From a virus: a stretch of 30,902 nucleotides of DNA. The notes beneath the pieces are model-generated. The model made no database searches and was not told where the DNA came from. It worked only from the letters and a program-made list of their open reading frames with translations. The translations under genes were made by a program, and so were the position numbers. Below are positions 10,283-18,160 of this stretch, in pieces (within the stretch, counting starts at the first letter, position 1; the number at the start of each line of letters is the position of its first letter). Where the stretch lies: positions 1 to 30,902 of IMG/VR virus record IMGVR_UViG_3300010334_000186; one strand, given 5' to 3'.

Positions 10283-11935
10283 GTGAAATATCCTATTTCA
10301 GTCTATCTCATCGCTGGAAATGAAGAAGAGTATATCGGTAGATGCTTGGAAAGCTTTAAGCCTATTTCAGCGGAACTTATTGTTTGCATTTCTAGGGGGT
10401 CAGCTACGCCAGATAAAACCGAAGAAATTGCTAGTGAGCTTGGGGCAAAGATCGTTCATTACCAGAATAAAAGAACTGACTGGAATCATATAGACGATTT
10501 TGCAACGGCTAGGAACACGGCTCTTGAGGCTTGTTCAAATGAATGGTGCTTATGGGTAGACGCTGACGATGTAATGGCCGAGGATGGGGCTAGGGTAGTC
10601 GAACAGGCTATTGACCTTGCAATTCAAAAAGACGCTCACCTAGTAGCCTTAAAATATTGGGTTGAAAATGCTGGATTGTTACCCCTTCGAGAAGAAATTT
10701 CCAAGAAAGGCACTTGCTACTGGAAGAACCGAGTCCACGAAATGCTTGTTACTAAAGAGCCAAACAAGACGATTGGGGTGGACAAGATTTTTAGAATCCA
10801 TAAACCCCACGGATACAAGCCAAGAAGCGCAGAAAGAAACTTAAACATTTTGGCAGATACTCTTTTGCCAGCTCCCAACTCCCTTTACTATCAAGCTCAA
10901 GAATACTTTTTGTCGAATCAAATTGAAAAGTGCATTGAGTCAAGCAAGCGAGCATTAGTATTCCCAGAGCTAGAGGACACGCTTCGGTATGATGTGCTTT
11001 GCAACCTTGGAAGATGCACACCAGAAAACGATAGGCTTTCTTATCTAGGACAAGCCATAGCCCTGCAACCAGATCGCAGAGAGGCTTATTTCTATATAGC
11101 AAATCATTGGTCTGGTAAGGGGAACTGGATAAAGACTTATGGTGCAATTAGGTCTTGTATGACCCTGCATCGCCCAAAAACTCACTATTGGAATCTTGTC
11201 GAGGCAATCTATAATTGGCAAGCGATGGATTTGTATGAGACAGCATCGGTGTGCGTTGGAGAATTTGGTGAAGCAGAGAAGATGAAAAAGATGCGGCCAA
11301 CCCCCAAAATCAGCATTGTTCACGCTACAAGGGGCAGACCGCAGATCGCTTGGCAGAGGCGATGGATGTGGCTTTCTTTGGCCGAGAAGCCCCTAGAAAT
11401 TGAATGGCTCTTTATGGTCGATCACAACGACCCCATAGATTACACTCCTCATCAAGCCATTAGATGCAATCCGGGTGGAATGATTAACGCTTGGAACGCA
11501 GGGGCAAAAATAGCCAAGTCAAACATTGTAATACAAATGAGCGATGATTGGACACCCCCGAAGCATTGGGATGCCCTAATTTTGACCGCTATTGGGGATA
11601 CAACGCAAGAGAAGGTGCTGGCAGTATCTGATGGGCTACGGCAAGATAAACTGCTTTGTATGGCTATTTTAACGCAATCTAGGCTAAAGAAGCAGGGGCA
11701 TCTATTTCACCCAGACTACCAAGAGTCAGATGGCATCTATTCAGACAATGAGTTCACAGAGAGAGCCTATGCGGAGCAAGTGATAATTGAGGCTAGACAC
11801 ATTAAATTTACCCACGATAATCCTATGTTTACTGGGGGGCAACCAGACGAACAGCTAAAAAACCATAATAAGCCAGAATTTTACGAAAAGGGAAAAGCCA
11901 TCTATGAAAAGCGCAAGGCAAGCAACTGGGCTTAA
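10283..11935 (+). CDS. Two-domain glycosyltransferase with helical-repeat middle
   Basis: 550 residues. Residues 1-130 are a family 2 GT-A domain: ISVYLIAGNEEEYIGRCLES, then the nucleotide-sugar/metal motif WVDADD (D93, D95, D96). Residues about 190-320 are helical with TPR-like spacing (YYQAQEYFLSNQIEKCIESS; REAYFYIANHWSGKGNW). From about 340 a second GT-A-like domain begins (ISIVHATRGRP), with MVDHND (D380, D383) and QMSDDW. It would transfer sugars from nucleotide donors. Phage transferases can modify virion proteins, phage DNA or host surface glycans; the location inside the late structural block favours virion or receptor modification. The start is GTG with no ribosome site. The domain calls are solid; the substrate is unknown. 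Confidence 0.85.
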   Translation: MKYPISVYLIAGNEEEYIGRCLESFKPISAELIVCISRGSATPDKTEEIASELGAKIVHYQNKRTDWNHIDDFATARNTALEACSNEWCLWVDADDVMAEDGARVVEQAIDLAIQKDAHLVALKYWVENAGLLPLREEISKKGTCYWKNRVHEMLVTKEPNKTIGVDKIFRIHKPHGYKPRSAERNLNILADTLLPAPNSLYYQAQEYFLSNQIEKCIESSKRALVFPELEDTLRYDVLCNLGRCTPENDRLSYLGQAIALQPDRREAYFYIANHWSGKGNWIKTYGAIRSCMTLHRPKTHYWNLVEAIYNWQAMDLYETASVCVGEFGEAEKMKKMRPTPKISIVHATRGRPQIAWQRRWMWLSLAEKPLEIEWLFMVDHNDPIDYTPHQAIRCNPGGMINAWNAGAKIAKSNIVIQMSDDWTPPKHWDALILTAIGDTTQEKVLAVSDGLRQDKLLCMAILTQSRLKKQGHLFHPDYQESDGIYSDNEFTERAYAEQVIIEARHIKFTHDNPMFTGGQPDEQLKNHNKPEFYEKGKAIYEKRKASNWA

Positions 11936-12635: not shown

Positions 12636-12953
12636 ATGGCTGGAACTATCAGCACCTCCTACTTCGAAACGGACTTGTCCTATATGATTCAAGACCTATA
12701 TCAATCCGTGACTGGCTTAGGTTCGTCCTCTGTTTCTGCCTCCGTTACAGACCTAACAACGGCAAGCGAGTTAGAGATAGGTGGAGAGGTGTTTAGGGTT
12801 ACGCAAAGCCTAGTCGTTTTGGCTTCGTCAATTTCTGCCCCAACTATTGGCTCTCTATGCACCGTGAGTGGAGTGGAGCGTATGATCGGAGGATTTTCGC
12901 AAAGCACAGATGGTCTTTCTTATACCATTGAACTTGCGGAGATTACGACCTAA
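12636..12953 (+). CDS. Head-tail connector-like protein
   Basis: 105 residues from the ATG at 12636 (MAGTISTSYFETDLSYMIQD); a longer frame from 12543 runs back into the previous gene and was not accepted. A short helix at the N-terminus is followed by beta strands, including SELEIGGEVFRVTQSLVVLA, reminiscent of the lambda FII type of head-completion protein (beta barrel with a G-E/G-F-x-V strand). Its position after the head genes and before the terminator-like genes fits a head-tail joining role. The stop overlaps the next start (TAATG). The family assignment is tentative. Confidence 0.55.
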   Translation: MAGTISTSYFETDLSYMIQDLYQSVTGLGSSSVSASVTDLTTASELEIGGEVFRVTQSLVVLASSISAPTIGSLCTVSGVERMIGGFSQSTDGLSYTIELAEITT

Positions 12954-13369
12954 TGGCCTCTATTGAGAGGGAGGTCGAGAATGCCCTCCTTAATGTAGTT
13001 TCTGGGATTACCGGGGTGAACTTCTTTACGAGTGAGAGAGGTACAGCGAGGACGATGCCAAGCGTCACGGTTCAAGCACAAATCAGCGGCGAGGAGGTTA
13101 TGCCCTTTTCTGGTGTGTTTAGAACCCCAGCATCAATCACCTATGTAGCAAGGGCAGACACCACGGCCAGAGCAGATTTTGACTCTAAGTTCACAGATAT
13201 TTTAGAACAGCTTTATCGTTCACCAGACCTAGCGAGCTATCTTACCGATCACTCAAACATAACTTTTTATGTAGCCAAAGTTACAGATGATAGCCCTGCC
13301 ATAAATGGTCAAAATCGAACTTGGTCAAGGGCTATGACTTTGGACATTATGGCAACCGCAAAGAAATGA
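12953..13369 (+). CDS. Tail-terminator-like protein, paralog 1
   Basis: 138 residues. The fold pattern is helix (IEREVENALLNVVSGITGVN), strands (MPSVTVQAQISGEEV), then a helix with ADFDSKFTDILEQLY and a final strand with RTWSRAMTLDIM. Size and alpha/beta layout suit the tail terminator (lambda U class) or tail-completion proteins, which form the hexameric ring capping the tail. It is coupled to the connector gene (TAATG) and to the next gene (ATGA), which is a clear paralog. Function is inferred from position and fold pattern. Confidence 0.55.
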   Translation: MASIEREVENALLNVVSGITGVNFFTSERGTARTMPSVTVQAQISGEEVMPFSGVFRTPASITYVARADTTARADFDSKFTDILEQLYRSPDLASYLTDHSNITFYVAKVTDDSPAINGQNRTWSRAMTLDIMATAKK

Positions 13370-13788
13370 ACAACAGCGTTCAAATCAATGTGGAGGATGC
13401 GCTCGCAAGTCTGCTATCTGGCATTTCTGAATTGAATGTCTATAAGACAAATAAGGTGGGGGCAAAACTATTCCCATACGCCACAATATCTGCATCCATA
13501 TCCGGGCAAGTATTAGGAAATTATACTGGTGTTTATGAGGTAGATGTATCAATTAACTACTCGGACACGGCGGCCAAGATAAGCCAAGCAAACTTTGACG
13601 CTAAATACTGCTCTATCTTTGAGGCTTTCTATTCTGAAACCCCAACACTCTTCACAAAGATTCAAAATAACATAGTAGACACAAAGGTTTATACTGCTCG
13701 AATCGTTGGTCAAAATCCAACCATTAAGACAGCTAAAAGGGCTTGGCAAAGAGGCTTAAAGATGAGCCTTGTCTGTACCCCACAATAA
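13366..13788 (+). CDS. Tail-terminator-like protein, paralog 2
   Basis: 140 residues from the ATG at 13366, which overlaps the stop of paralog 1; an in-frame upstream extension was rejected. It shares the same plan: N-terminal helix (VEDALASLLSGISELN), PYATISASISGQVLGNYTGV (against PSVTVQAQISGEEVMPFSGV), then ANFDAKYCSIFEAFY (against ADFDSKFTDILEQLY), and a closing KRAWQRGLKMSLV (against NRTWSRAMTLDIM). The likeness is clear but low, so the duplication is old. One copy may be the terminator and the other a completion or head-closure partner. Confidence 0.55.
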   Translation: MNNSVQINVEDALASLLSGISELNVYKTNKVGAKLFPYATISASISGQVLGNYTGVYEVDVSINYSDTAAKISQANFDAKYCSIFEAFYSETPTLFTKIQNNIVDTKVYTARIVGQNPTIKTAKRAWQRGLKMSLVCTPQ

Positions 13789-13828
13789 ACATTCTGCTTC
13801 TTTTGCTAATTTAACACCTAACCCAATT

Positions 13829-13954
13829 ATGCCCATATTGCTCATCGCCTTATTGCTTGGCTCTTGCTCGCCAAGGCATACAGATAATAATGCACTGCCG
13901 CGCTATTCAGATATGTCGGCGGCTGAAGATGCAGGAAGAGTCAAAAGTCAATGA
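13829..13954 (+). CDS. Small lipoprotein
   Basis: 41 residues from the ATG at 13829 (MPILLIALLLGSCSPRHTDN). The N-terminus is a short signal peptide with lipobox LGSC, so Cys13 would be lipidated and the protein anchored to a membrane. The mature part is only 29 polar residues. A longer in-frame start at 13769 would put the signal peptide internally and is rejected. The stop overlaps the next ATG. It could be an o-spanin-like or superinfection-exclusion lipoprotein; it is not near the lysis cassette at 22 kb, so an exclusion or entry role is equally possible. Confidence 0.6.
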   Translation: MPILLIALLLGSCSPRHTDNNALPRYSDMSAAEDAGRVKSQ

Positions 13955-14106
13955 GTGCAACGGAAGATACCAATACCCCTAGCTGGCGGGATTTTATGGC
14001 AAGTCTAAAATTTCTAGAGGCCGAGGGCTACATAGAGATATTCTATAATGATAAGGGAGAGCAGATGGTAAGGATTGCTCCCGGTGCAGAGAAGGCAAGG
14101 CTATGA
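13951..14106 (+). CDS. Hypothetical 51-residue protein
   Basis: The translation begins MSATEDTNTPSWRDFMASLK and ends GAEKARL; soluble, acidic, with a helix-strand-strand pattern (LKFLEAEGYIEIFYNDKGEQ). It resembles a tiny winged-helix wing but is too short to assign. Its ATG overlaps the lipoprotein stop and its TGA overlaps the next ATG (both ATGA), strong evidence that it is a real coupled gene. Function unknown. Confidence 0.55.
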   Translation: MSATEDTNTPSWRDFMASLKFLEAEGYIEIFYNDKGEQMVRIAPGAEKARL

Positions 14107-14357
14107 GTTCCGACCAAGTTGCAGACTTGAGGGAGAGACTGGCAAGAATCGAAGAAAGGCAAGTAAATTTAATTGCTGTTTTGGAGCGTCACACCAGCGA
14201 AATAGCCGAATGGACTGGCAGGATGAACGGCAAGGTAGACACCCTAGAAAGGGACGCTCACACCATCAAAACAAAGTTATGGCTAGTTGCTCTAGTGTCT
14301 GGGGCAGTATTCTCTACAATATGGGAGCTAATCAAAGTCAGAGTGCTTTCTAGATAA
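14103..14357 (+). CDS. Coiled-coil, tail-anchored membrane protein (XhlA-like)
   Basis: 84 residues. Residues 5-55 are an amphipathic coiled coil (DLRERLARIEERQVNLIAVL), and residues 59-76 are one hydrophobic segment (LWLVALVSGAVFSTIWEL) near the C-terminus. This layout, coiled coil then membrane helix, is that of XhlA-type holin-associated proteins. It is coupled to the 51-residue gene. Together with the lipoprotein 150 bases upstream it forms a small membrane-directed cluster between tail-terminator and tail-tube genes. A lysis-accessory or exclusion role is possible; nothing here is diagnostic. Confidence 0.6.
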   Translation: MSSDQVADLRERLARIEERQVNLIAVLERHTSEIAEWTGRMNGKVDTLERDAHTIKTKLWLVALVSGAVFSTIWELIKVRVLSR

Positions 14358-14380: not shown

Positions 14381-14413
14381 ATGATTAACAATTTTTTTGA
14401 GGTTTCAATCTAA
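14381..14413 (+). CDS. Possible 10-residue leader peptide
   Basis: ATG at 14381 opens a ten-codon frame (MINNFFEVSI) whose TAA shares a base with the ATG of the tail-tube gene (TAATG). The TTGACA spacing (16 nt) matches that of true gene starts elsewhere, while the tail-tube ATG itself is 48 nt away and has its own GAGGT ribosome site inside the leader. It may be a coupling leader or simply chance. Confidence 0.25.
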   Translation: MINNFFEVSI

Positions 14414-14760
14414 TGCCAGCCACAACTATCGGGAATGCTGGGCTTGTGTTTGGTTTGAACACGGAAACGATTGGCCTTGTGCAGAGCTTCTCTGAAACAC
14501 GAAACATTGAGAAGAATGAAATTAGAAATTCAACTGGCGATATTTCTGCCGTTGGATACTATAACCCAACAACGGCTTATTCTTTGAGCGTTGCGATTAC
14601 TGGTGCTAACACAAGCCTAACGGTTGGTGGTGCTTTTGCTTCTCTCGCTAATGCTACTACGGTTGGAACTTGCCGAATTGACTCAATCGCTTTGAGCAAG
14701 ACGAATACTGGATTCGTCACTCTCGACATCTCTGCTACTGGTTATCCAAACGTAAGTTAA
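14413..14760 (+). CDS. Major tail (tube) protein candidate
   Basis: 115 residues, small and beta-rich (MPATTIGNAGLVFGLNTETI...). The segment FSETRNIEKNEIRNSTGDIS followed by GYYNPTTAYSLSVAITGANT is typical of short tail-tube proteins: it has the 'EKNEIRNSTGD' loop and alternating beta strands. Position supports it: after terminator-like genes and before chaperone and tape measure, the place of lambda V. A GAGGT ribosome site lies nine bases upstream. No lectin-like Ig domain is appended. The tube protein would polymerise into hexamer rings around the tape measure. The call depends mainly on synteny and fold pattern. Confidence 0.65.
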   Translation: MPATTIGNAGLVFGLNTETIGLVQSFSETRNIEKNEIRNSTGDISAVGYYNPTTAYSLSVAITGANTSLTVGGAFASLANATTVGTCRIDSIALSKTNTGFVTLDISATGYPNVS

Positions 14761-15178: not shown

Positions 15179-15562
15179 ATGAGTGACATCCTAGACGAAG
15201 AATTAAACGCATCATTTGTTCAGCCCCATAAATCCTTCAAGGGCGAACAGATTGCAGAATACACAGAAGGCTCACGCCTTTTAATGTTACAATGCAAGGA
15301 TAAGAACGATTCATCGGTATATTTTGTTTGGTCTTTTCTCTATTTGCATTTACTCCTTCACAAGAATAAGCGGGAGGCAATTAAGCTGGCTTGGGATAAG
15401 GACACTTTTAGGGAGAGGGTGCTAGATTGGGTGGCCGATAAGACTGATGAGGATAGGGATATTGCTACAAATATCGTATCCACAATCATAGAAGATGCTG
15501 GAAAGGCAAGGGTTTCAATCGTTCAATCTGGGATTGAGGGGCAAGCTTCGGGAAACGAGTAA
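15179..15562 (+). CDS. Tail assembly chaperone, short form (gpG-like)
   Basis: 127 residues, mainly helical and acidic at the N-terminus (MSDILDEELNASFVQPHKSF), with VYFVWSFLYLHLLLHKNKRE and DWVADKTDEDRDIATNIVST. It occupies the position of lambda G, between the tail tube and tape measure. The last codons contain the slippery heptamer GGGAAAC, and a second open frame continues past its stop. The short form would bind and solubilise the tape measure before tube assembly. Identity rests on position, size and the frameshift architecture, which together are diagnostic of tail chaperones. Confidence 0.82.
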   Translation: MSDILDEELNASFVQPHKSFKGEQIAEYTEGSRLLMLQCKDKNDSSVYFVWSFLYLHLLLHKNKREAIKLAWDKDTFRERVLDWVADKTDEDRDIATNIVSTIIEDAGKARVSIVQSGIEGQASGNE

Positions 15563-15771
15563 CGCCAGCGTGGACGGCTTACACGCTCTTTACGCTGGCA
15601 GAACGAACCGGGTGGACTATGGAATACATTTTATGGAGCATTCCAATACGCCTTCTAAACCAAGGCATTCATACATACTTATTTGGAAGCGGGGTTAAGG
15701 TTGTGAGAGATTCCTCTGTAAGTTCAGAAGAGAGAAGCGAAATGGCAAAATTGATGGGCATTCAAATTTAA
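15179..15771 (+). CDS. Tail assembly chaperone, -1 frameshift fusion (gpGT-like)
   Basis: Reading 126 codons in the first frame through AAC (15554-15556), then slipping back one base and continuing from 15556, gives a further 71 residues to the TAA at 15769-15771 (197 residues in all). The new part starts RVTPAWTAYTLFTLAERTGW, contains EYILWSIPIRLLNQGIHTYL and ends AKLMGIQI. It is well composed and fills a stretch that otherwise has no acceptable gene. As in lambda G/GT, a minor share of ribosomes would make this form, whose tail recruits tube protein. The overlapping frame 15495-15698 is a poorer candidate and is rejected. Confidence 0.8.
15550..15599 (+). promoter_or_regulatory. Programmed -1 ribosomal frameshift signal
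   Basis: The slippery heptamer G GGA AAC (15550-15556) is in phase with the chaperone frame and fits X XXY YYZ; lambda uses G GGA AAG at the same place. After a seven-base spacer, GCCAGCGT (15564-15571) pairs with ACGCTGGC (15592-15599), an 8-bp stem around a 20-base loop. The first-frame stop TAA (15560-15562) lies in the spacer. All three elements of a -1 signal are present. Confidence 0.82.
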
Positions 15772-15786
15772 CACTAGGCAATTTAT

Positions 15787-16575
15787 ATGATAGAAATTGA
15801 CCTTCTGAATCAAGCCAAGTTTATTCATAAATTGCAACAATATCAGCAAGTATCAAAAAAGAATATGGCTGATGTTATAAATTCAAAATTAGGCGATGTT
15901 GCTGTTACTGCAATAGGAACTACCTACAGAACTAATGCGGCACAAATAGCAAGTGAATTACAAAGGGTAGAAGGGAAAGTTGTTACTAAAAAAGTATTTA
16001 AGCCATTTGGACTTACAAAATCTGGTAAGATTAAGAAGCGAAAGATAGGCGAATATGTAGTTGGATACAAAGCTCAATCAGTAAGTTATGCTGGTACATA
16101 CAAGCTAGTTAATTGGCTTTTGAAAAATAGAGGGCTTCCAACATTAGGAAAGACAAAGCTTGGAGTTGGTGGATTAGGAATGGGCACAAAACCCGGAACA
16201 ATCGGGGCATTGGCTAGAAGGCTAGTGGCTGGAAGAAAACGATCTATCAACTATATTAGGAATGGATGGGCGGCAGCGGCGGCGGTATTTGGGAAGCGGG
16301 AAAATCTTACTAGGGGTGATTATAGCAAAGAATCAATTAAACGACTTGGTGGAGGAACAAAGGCCGATAGTGAAAAGGCTCAAATGGAGGGAATCATCTT
16401 TAATCGCGCTGGTGACCTAGACACAAGATATTATCCAGTAAGGAAAAGAGCCATTTCTGGTGCGGCCAAGGTTGGTATGCCGGGGCTACTAATGGCTATT
16501 GATAAAGTTATGAAAGATATGAATGTATATCTTGCAAGAAAGAATAAAGAGGAAAGTGACAAGTTAGGATTGTAG
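15787..16575 (+). CDS. Hypothetical tail protein, 262 residues
   Basis: It is basic, begins MIEIDLLNQAKFIHKLQQYQ, and has a Gly/Lys-rich middle (LGKTKLGVGGLGMGTKPGTI) and a helical end (LLMAIDKVMKDMNVYLARKN). The N-terminal helix-rich part and the IRNGWAAAAAVFGKR segment recall minor tail or tail-completion proteins, but no family is recognised. It sits between the chaperone and the tape measure, fifteen bases after the fusion stop and one base before the tape measure. A minor tail or tube-associated role is likely from context. Confidence 0.6.
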   Translation: MIEIDLLNQAKFIHKLQQYQQVSKKNMADVINSKLGDVAVTAIGTTYRTNAAQIASELQRVEGKVVTKKVFKPFGLTKSGKIKKRKIGEYVVGYKAQSVSYAGTYKLVNWLLKNRGLPTLGKTKLGVGGLGMGTKPGTIGALARRLVAGRKRSINYIRNGWAAAAAVFGKRENLTRGDYSKESIKRLGGGTKADSEKAQMEGIIFNRAGDLDTRYYPVRKRAISGAAKVGMPGLLMAIDKVMKDMNVYLARKNKEESDKLGL

Positions 16576-16576
16576 T

Positions 16577-18160
16577 ATGGCAGACGCAACACAAGAACTA
16601 ATGCTTCGAGTTAGGGGTGATAACTCTGGCGCAGATAAGGCAGTAGCGGGAACAAAAGCCGCTATTGATGAGCTTAATATAAGCGGTCAAAAGGCAAAAC
16701 AAGCATTTAAGAGCTTTAGCCATAGCCTAGCAGAAGCTAGAGACGCTTCGGATGTTGCGGCCTCTGCGGCAAATAGTCTTTCTACTATTGTTGGGAAGTC
16801 TCTTATGGGGGCATTTGCGGTTGGTGGGATTAAGATATTTACAGACCAAATCAATCGAATGGGGGAGGATGTAAAGGCAGTTGCCACCGAAGCCCAACAA
16901 GCCTTTAACAATATAGAAAAAGCTGGTCAAGCGATGAGCTTGGCAGAGGCCACAAACCAAGTTGCACAGCTAGACGCACTATTGGAATCTACTTCAAAAA
17001 AGTTGAGCGACCTTGACCGAAGCCCATTTCAGAATTTTATTGCTGGTGCTACTGGTGCTAGAAGTGCTATGGAAGACCTTGTCGAGACATCTCAAAGACT
17101 ACGAGATGTGAAATTGGCAGAAGGCTTGGCAAGCGAAAACGCAAATGCAGAACATCTTTCTGGGCTTGATAAGCAATCTCTTGCAATCGCAAAGGTAAAT
17201 GAAGAATATGTAAAACGAGGGAAACTAGCTCAAACATTTACAGACAAAGAGGCATATCGATTATTTCAAGAAGAAAGTGCCGCAATAAAGGTTAGGGAAA
17301 CCAATGCAATTATCGACAAGGGAATAGAGGAGAGAACTGACAAGGAAAGAGAGGCAACGGATACTCGCAGAAAAAATGCGATGGATGAATTTCAACTTGA
17401 GATTGACGCTCAAAACAAAAAGACAGAAGCTGAAAGCAAGGCATTTTTTGAGAAGCTAGATCATCAAAAGCAATTATTGGAGCAAGCCAAGAAAATAGAG
17501 GAATCAGAGGGAAAGCTAAACGACTTGTTAAATAAGAGAATTGGAATAGAAGATCAGCTTCAGCAAGCGCAACAAGGCGAAACAATAAGGCAAGGGGAGC
17601 TGGCGACTATGACCGCAGGGGTTGGCGGGTCGTTGCGTGGGGCTGGGCAAAGAAAAACATCTTTTGAAATTGGACTAGGAAAAGCTGCAGATAGGGCATA
17701 CCAAGATCAAAAAAGACAAGAACAAGAAAAGCAAGACGAGATAATTTCCAGCGAACTGAAAGCTCAAGGAAAATCTTATGGAAAACAAGATGTTCAAAGA
17801 GAGAAGGTTGCAAGGGCAGAAGCGGCAGCAAGAGAAAAAGCTAAAAAAGAATTTGAAGATCCATATCAAAAACAAATAGAAAATACAACAAAAGCACTCA
17901 AGGATAATGAGCAAGAAATTTTAAAGCAATTAAATGCAATACAAGATCTTGGTGGGTCGGCTTCTTCTGCGGAAGCACAAATAAATGCTATGGCTAATTC
18001 GATCGGAGGACTTTCTGGGGCTATTAATTCTTTGAGCGTAGATTCCAGCGAAATTTCATCTGGTGGTGTGGATTCATCATCATATCTAGCATTAAATGAT
18101 ATTAAGGAATTATTGCAGAAGAATTTTGAAGAACTGAAAGCGTATGCACACGCAACCTAA
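16577..18160 (+). CDS. Tape measure protein, short
   Basis: 527 residues. It opens with ELMLRVRGDNSGADKAVAGT, the N-terminal pattern of tape measure proteins (self-pairing LRV-x-GDNSGAD followed by a helix). A hydrophobic stretch (about 68-90, SLMGAFAVGGIKIF) is followed by long charged coiled coils (about 225-470: KEREATDTRRKNAMDEFQLE; KQIENTTKALKDNEQEILKQ) and a Ser/Gly-rich end. The protein is much smaller than usual (about 700-2000) but agrees with a short tail. It sets tail length and is ejected ahead of DNA. No lytic transglycosylase or peptidase domain is seen. Identity is supported by position after the frameshifted chaperone. Confidence 0.82.
   Translation: MADATQELMLRVRGDNSGADKAVAGTKAAIDELNISGQKAKQAFKSFSHSLAEARDASDVAASAANSLSTIVGKSLMGAFAVGGIKIFTDQINRMGEDVKAVATEAQQAFNNIEKAGQAMSLAEATNQVAQLDALLESTSKKLSDLDRSPFQNFIAGATGARSAMEDLVETSQRLRDVKLAEGLASENANAEHLSGLDKQSLAIAKVNEEYVKRGKLAQTFTDKEAYRLFQEESAAIKVRETNAIIDKGIEERTDKEREATDTRRKNAMDEFQLEIDAQNKKTEAESKAFFEKLDHQKQLLEQAKKIEESEGKLNDLLNKRIGIEDQLQQAQQGETIRQGELATMTAGVGGSLRGAGQRKTSFEIGLGKAADRAYQDQKRQEQEKQDEIISSELKAQGKSYGKQDVQREKVARAEAAAREKAKKEFEDPYQKQIENTTKALKDNEQEILKQLNAIQDLGGSASSAEAQINAMANSIGGLSGAINSLSVDSSEISSGGVDSSSYLALNDIKELLQKNFEELKAYAHAT

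Follow-up and report, generated by a model that had tools for sequence, protein, structure and literature searches.

Does a short gene in the tail region of an uncultured phage end in a signal that would carry some ribosomes into a second reading frame, and is the longer product likely to serve tail assembly? The question is raised by the window, that is the whole 30,902-base stretch analysed here, an IMG/VR virus record (IMGVR_UViG_3300010334_000186), for which a preliminary description had proposed that a GGGAAAC heptamer joins the two halves of a tail chaperone on the gpG/gpGT plan of lambda. A -1 slip at the end of a short gene is standard in the tail building of tailed phages; the window carries genes for a large terminase of the gpA type, a portal of the lambda type and a major head protein, and its affiliation to the tailed phages is therefore clear. 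We consider it very probable that a programmed -1 ribosomal frameshift would yield two tail assembly chaperones from one gene at this site. The gpG/gpGT plan is supported by the conservation of heptamer, stop, stem and extension frame in 30 loci, by shuffle and covariation tests and by dN/dS values. The elements at the site are as follows.

15179 to 15562, plus strand: zero-frame ORF of 127 residues, from the ORF listing, with 62-92% identity in a 13-sequence alignment; putative short tail assembly chaperone with a gpG-like role, judged from gene order.
15550 to 15556, plus strand: slippery heptamer GGGAAAC in the phase G GGA AAC, read from the sequence and identical in 30 relatives.
15557 to 15563, plus strand: 7-nt spacer GAGUAAC (GAGTAAC in the DNA), read from the sequence, which includes the zero-frame TAA at 15560-15562.
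15550 to 15771, plus strand: predicted -1 frame extension of 71 codons after the slip, closed by the TAA at 15769-15771, with a putative gpT-like role; from ORF, alignment and dN/dS.
15564 to 15574, plus strand: 5' arm of the putative stimulatory stem, from folding, synonymous shuffles and covariation.
15589 to 15599, plus strand: 3' arm of the same stem, on the same grounds.

Heptamer phase, seven-base spacer and 71-codon frame were all found where they had been placed. Codons 125 and 126 of the short ORF, whose product ends in GQASGNE, are GGA AAC and are preceded by a G, giving the X XXY YYZ phase one codon ahead of the stop TAA. The predicted fusion, recomputed as 126 + 71, comes to the 197 residues given earlier. 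In-phase X XXY YYZ heptamers are common in the window (36 in about 9,500 codons of its likely genes), and the heptamer alone therefore means little, although only the one at 15550 lies no more than 30 nt from its own gene's stop. The main evidence for a frameshift signal is comparative and comes from alignments of related loci, not from the heptamer by itself. A small third-frame ORF at 15495-15698 was dismissed as spurious, as selection acts in the -1 frame. A Shine-Dalgarno-like GAGGGG stands just 5' of the heptamer in the window and its close relatives and is absent from two other related loci (L010 and L015).

Scans of IMG/VR, queried with each half and with the aligned extensions, returned 35 distinct extension loci, in all of which the stop follows the heptamer at 3 nt. 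Thirty of them (L004-L033) carry a related short ORF, the exact GGGAAAC with the stop one codon later, the same spacer and stem position, and extensions of 70-73 residues that are 38-90% identical to that of the window. The remaining five (L034-L038) have GGGAAAG at an unchanged distance from the stop; their extension is 29% identical to the window's, and their short ORF has no detectable relation to the window's short ORF. In the part of the extension that lies beyond the stem, the -1 frame gives dN/dS values of 0.05-0.20 for pairs with an estimable dS (one pair was saturated), and this pattern is lost when the same stretch is read in the other two frames. Judged from these alignments, purifying selection acts on the extension as read in the -1 frame.

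Downstream stimulatory structures at 5-9 nt are often, though not always, present in G/GT-type pairs. The stem of the window starts 7 nt past GGGAAAC, inside that expected range. A hairpin had been described here as 8 bp around a 20-nt loop; its presence stands, whereas its dimensions do not, the minimum-energy structure having 11 bp between 15564-15574 and 15589-15599 and, further in, a helix of 3 bp. Its folding energy is -22.8 kcal/mol over a 47-nt segment, and the region has a z of -3.1 over an 84-nt segment. In a shuffle test that keeps the encoded extension unchanged, only 0-3.2% of codon-preserving synonymous shuffles fold as well as the natural sequence, and this holds for 19 of 19 distinct segments of the GGGAAAC family; the stem has no such support among the distant GGGAAAG loci (7% and 52% of shuffles as good). 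Across 22 distinct aligned sequences, gathered by protein similarity, pairing is seen in 95.5% of cells, compared with 30-51% with slid partners. No shuffle reached the observed covariation score of these 22 sequences, but such shuffles do not control for relatedness, and it is therefore the slid controls and the pair changes that carry the weight. A pseudoknot between the loop and downstream sequence was also considered and rejected, the best complementarity being just 5 bases.

A wider family was assembled from 65 loci with a YTEGSRL motif in the short form, which amount to 50 distinct sequences among the matches listed. The DNA pattern used for it predetermines the heptamer together with the three leading bases of the 5' arm, positions that are thus no evidence in this set, and leaves pairs 18/47, 19/46 and 20/45 and the entire 3' arm free. 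Among the matches listed, the first six stem pairs are unbroken in all 50 distinct sequences, and pair 20/45 is C-G in 33, G-C in 15 and G-U in 2. Higher up the stem, pairing is more variable, at 54-94%. The unbroken first six pairs, including a swap from C-G to G-C, indicate that the RNA structure itself is selected.

These data bear on three other accounts of the locus. The extension could be a separate small gene with its own start, or one reached by reinitiation past the TAA. The closeness of the zero-frame stop to the extension frame is in keeping with such an arrangement, as is an ATG with an upstream GGGTGG at codon 24 inside the window's extension. The preliminary description had named a downstream frame with its own start in homologs as the finding that would speak against a fusion; we checked the relatives for it and did not see it. 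In the window's close relatives L004-L015, no ATG, GTG or TTG occurs from the point where the frame opens through the first 60 nt of the extension, and the start codons found in the extensions of other groups are internal and not common between groups. The stretch ahead of codon 24 ranks with the best conserved parts of the extension and would be lost from a product begun there, and the invariant heptamer would be left unexplained. We regard a separate gene as very unlikely. A once continuous gene broken by a real or a sequencing frameshift would likewise leave two adjacent frames of common history; however, the break would have to fall at the identical base, with heptamer, stop and stem, in 30 loci whose extensions diverge down to 38% identity, and there is purifying selection on the -1 frame. 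Conservation across these 30 loci already refutes the broken-gene account, to which we assign practically no probability.

The third account accepts a fusion and lets it arise by transcriptional slippage, or gives it a function other than tail assembly. The latter is favoured by the want of direct homology support for a chaperone role, whereas the place of the pair before a tape-measure-like gene fits tail assembly. As to transcriptional slippage, runs of three bases are too short for usual polymerase slippage and those of GGGAAAC are just three bases long, whereas a selected stem 7 nt downstream fits slippage by the ribosome. We give this account, in either form, only a slim chance. Under the preferred reading, programmed ribosomal frameshifting, most ribosomes would stop at the TAA at 15560 and release a 127-residue chaperone, whereas a minority would pause at the stem 7 nt past GGGAAAC, shift from G GGA AAC to GGG AAA by tandem -1 slippage and read 71 more codons, giving the 197-residue fusion as the minority form. 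If lambda gpG/gpGT is a guide, the part common to both products would form a coat on the tape measure protein, and the tail tube subunit would be recruited by the extension. The slippage, its efficiency and these binding roles are what we infer for the pair.

How far the two halves can be tied to known proteins was addressed by homology and structure searches. Neither half matched Pfam at E up to 1, and the Pfam cut-offs for lambda G (PF06894) and T (PF06223) were reached by neither, whereas lambda's own G and T proteins, run as a control, match these families. BLASTP and profile alignment of the pair against lambda G or T gave no alignment, so that the extension is, as first described, unrelated in sequence to lambda T by the BLASTP, Pfam and profile comparisons run. 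Across Pfam and PHROGs together, the only match of either half was to phrog_11996 (208 positions) at 0.0034, near its C-terminal end, which is where the fused form would place it; no tail chaperone family of either collection was matched. Annotated phage records held no relative of the short form and only chance-level matches to the extension, and a sequence search of the PDB gave no match. One scan of genome contigs found no relative, and therefore no host was suggested. The homology search and structure prediction earlier proposed for the extension were carried out, the former pointing to no known chaperone family and the latter giving AlphaFold models of the two halves with pLDDT 67 and 63 (moderate to low confidence). 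Comparison of the short-form model (pLDDT 67, moderate confidence) with solved structures gave no significant match and was uninformative as to a tail chaperone fold.

Comparison with known systems places the pair more closely. In lambda, the fused form bridges tape measure complex and tube subunit (PMC5009743). The window resembles lambda gpG/gpGT in that a short ORF carries a heptamer close to its 3' end and is followed by a -1 extension ahead of the probable tape measure gene, and in both a small share of the longer form is expected. It differs in that the heptamer is GGGAAAC instead of GGGAAAG, the stem is strong and conserved, the extension is shorter and without detected homology to T, and a further gene separates the pair from the probable tape measure gene. 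The preliminary description had treated the GGGAAAC heptamer as notable; it is not, being published for two other viruses and present at several other junctions found here. Caulobacter phage Colossus has a GGGAAAC slippery site in its chaperone gene ahead of the tape measure gene (PMC3556154), and the g-t junction of HCTV-1 has the heptamer G_GGA_AAC, as it is cited in PMC5009743; both are likened to the window by site alone, and HCTV-1 differs in being a virus of halophilic archaea. In Escherichia coli, which may not be the host of this phage, A_AAA_AAC is less shift-prone than A_AAA_AAG (PMC5009743). The pair is a divergent member of an already known type of frameshift chaperone, and its choice of GGGAAAC is ordinary.

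Scanning IMG/VR with the pattern GGGAAACGNNTRACGCC returned at least 120 sites, the window's own counted; for at least 91 of them, the frame upstream is open over 80 codons or more and the extension counts 60 or more. Some of these 91 or more are probably chance occurrences (for example L142 and L155), and some other sites look like different chaperone pairs as judged by their encoded proteins. At one of these (L123) the extension, unlike that of the window, passes the Pfam Phage_tail_T cut-off (7e-6), and the short form weakly resembles Phage_TAC_13; the short forms of L123 and of another site (L076) resemble tail assembly chaperone PHROGs. Both sites share heptamer, stop position and the GKRxTP extension start with the window, features that are all fixed by the pattern. 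When the extension was compared with gpT-like extensions by profile, only GKRxTP aligned; it is imposed by the search pattern and was not counted as homology.

The extension carries the motif GKRxTP...A...GW..YILW..P...Q. That it is a tail-initiator domain with an origin independent of lambda gpT, exchanged between unrelated chaperone halves, is a tentative idea that we think has the lesser chance of being right. At positions 2600-3243 of L034, a related extension domain sharing GW..EYILW..P stands behind GGGAAAG after a short ORF for which no relation to that of the window could be detected. An exchange of chaperone halves is a possible reading of this arrangement.

With this window, a divergent and hitherto unannotated family is added to the tail chaperone pairs of uncultured phages, and in this family the comparative evidence for a selected RNA stem behind the slip site is unusually clear. 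A short DNA pattern around GGGAAAC can find chaperone pairs where protein families fail, which offers a way to correct gene callers where these omit the extension or split it. The understanding of tail assembly is unchanged by this pair.

The tail-chaperone role itself we infer from gene order, the tape measure gene of L034 and the frameshift architecture, and not from homology. Three neighbouring genes matter here.

14413 to 14760, plus strand: 115-residue protein, possibly the tail tube protein from its position; its upstream place is kept in L005, L016 and L028.
15787 to 16575, plus strand: 262-residue protein, a distant relative of the gene at the equivalent place in L005.
16577 to 18160, plus strand: 527-residue coiled-coil-like protein, the probable tape measure, with 30% identity to an ORF of L005.

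In the window and in L005, L016 and L028, a 115-residue gene is followed by a gene of 123-126 residues, the pair, a gene of 258-300 residues and one of 433-566 residues. The pair sits between a possible tube gene and a putative tape measure gene, as in the order expected of such pairs, but with one extra gene before the putative tape measure. The window's own tube and tape measure genes were not recognised by Pfam or PHROGs, the 115-residue gene being without a family match in either. The L005 counterpart of the gene at 16577-18160 has a weak PHROG tape-measure match, and for the ORF in the tape-measure position of L034 the matches to tape measure PHROGs reach 2e-9. Identity to L005 is 85-91% for the chaperone pair and only 24-30% for the next two genes, the change being abrupt right at the end of the extension; so sharp a drop would be odd if a chaperone must fit its tape measure protein.

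Further observations concern the region upstream. The ORFs at 12953-13369 and 13321-13788, of similar length and with similar motifs, appear by eye to be a tandem duplicated pair. Inside the tail region, 13769-14357 holds two small ORFs, of which one has a lipobox-like LLGSC and the other a coiled coil and a single membrane-like segment; the two are possibly lysis genes (spanin and holin). A family 2 glycosyltransferase gene (10283-11935) sits among the structural genes.
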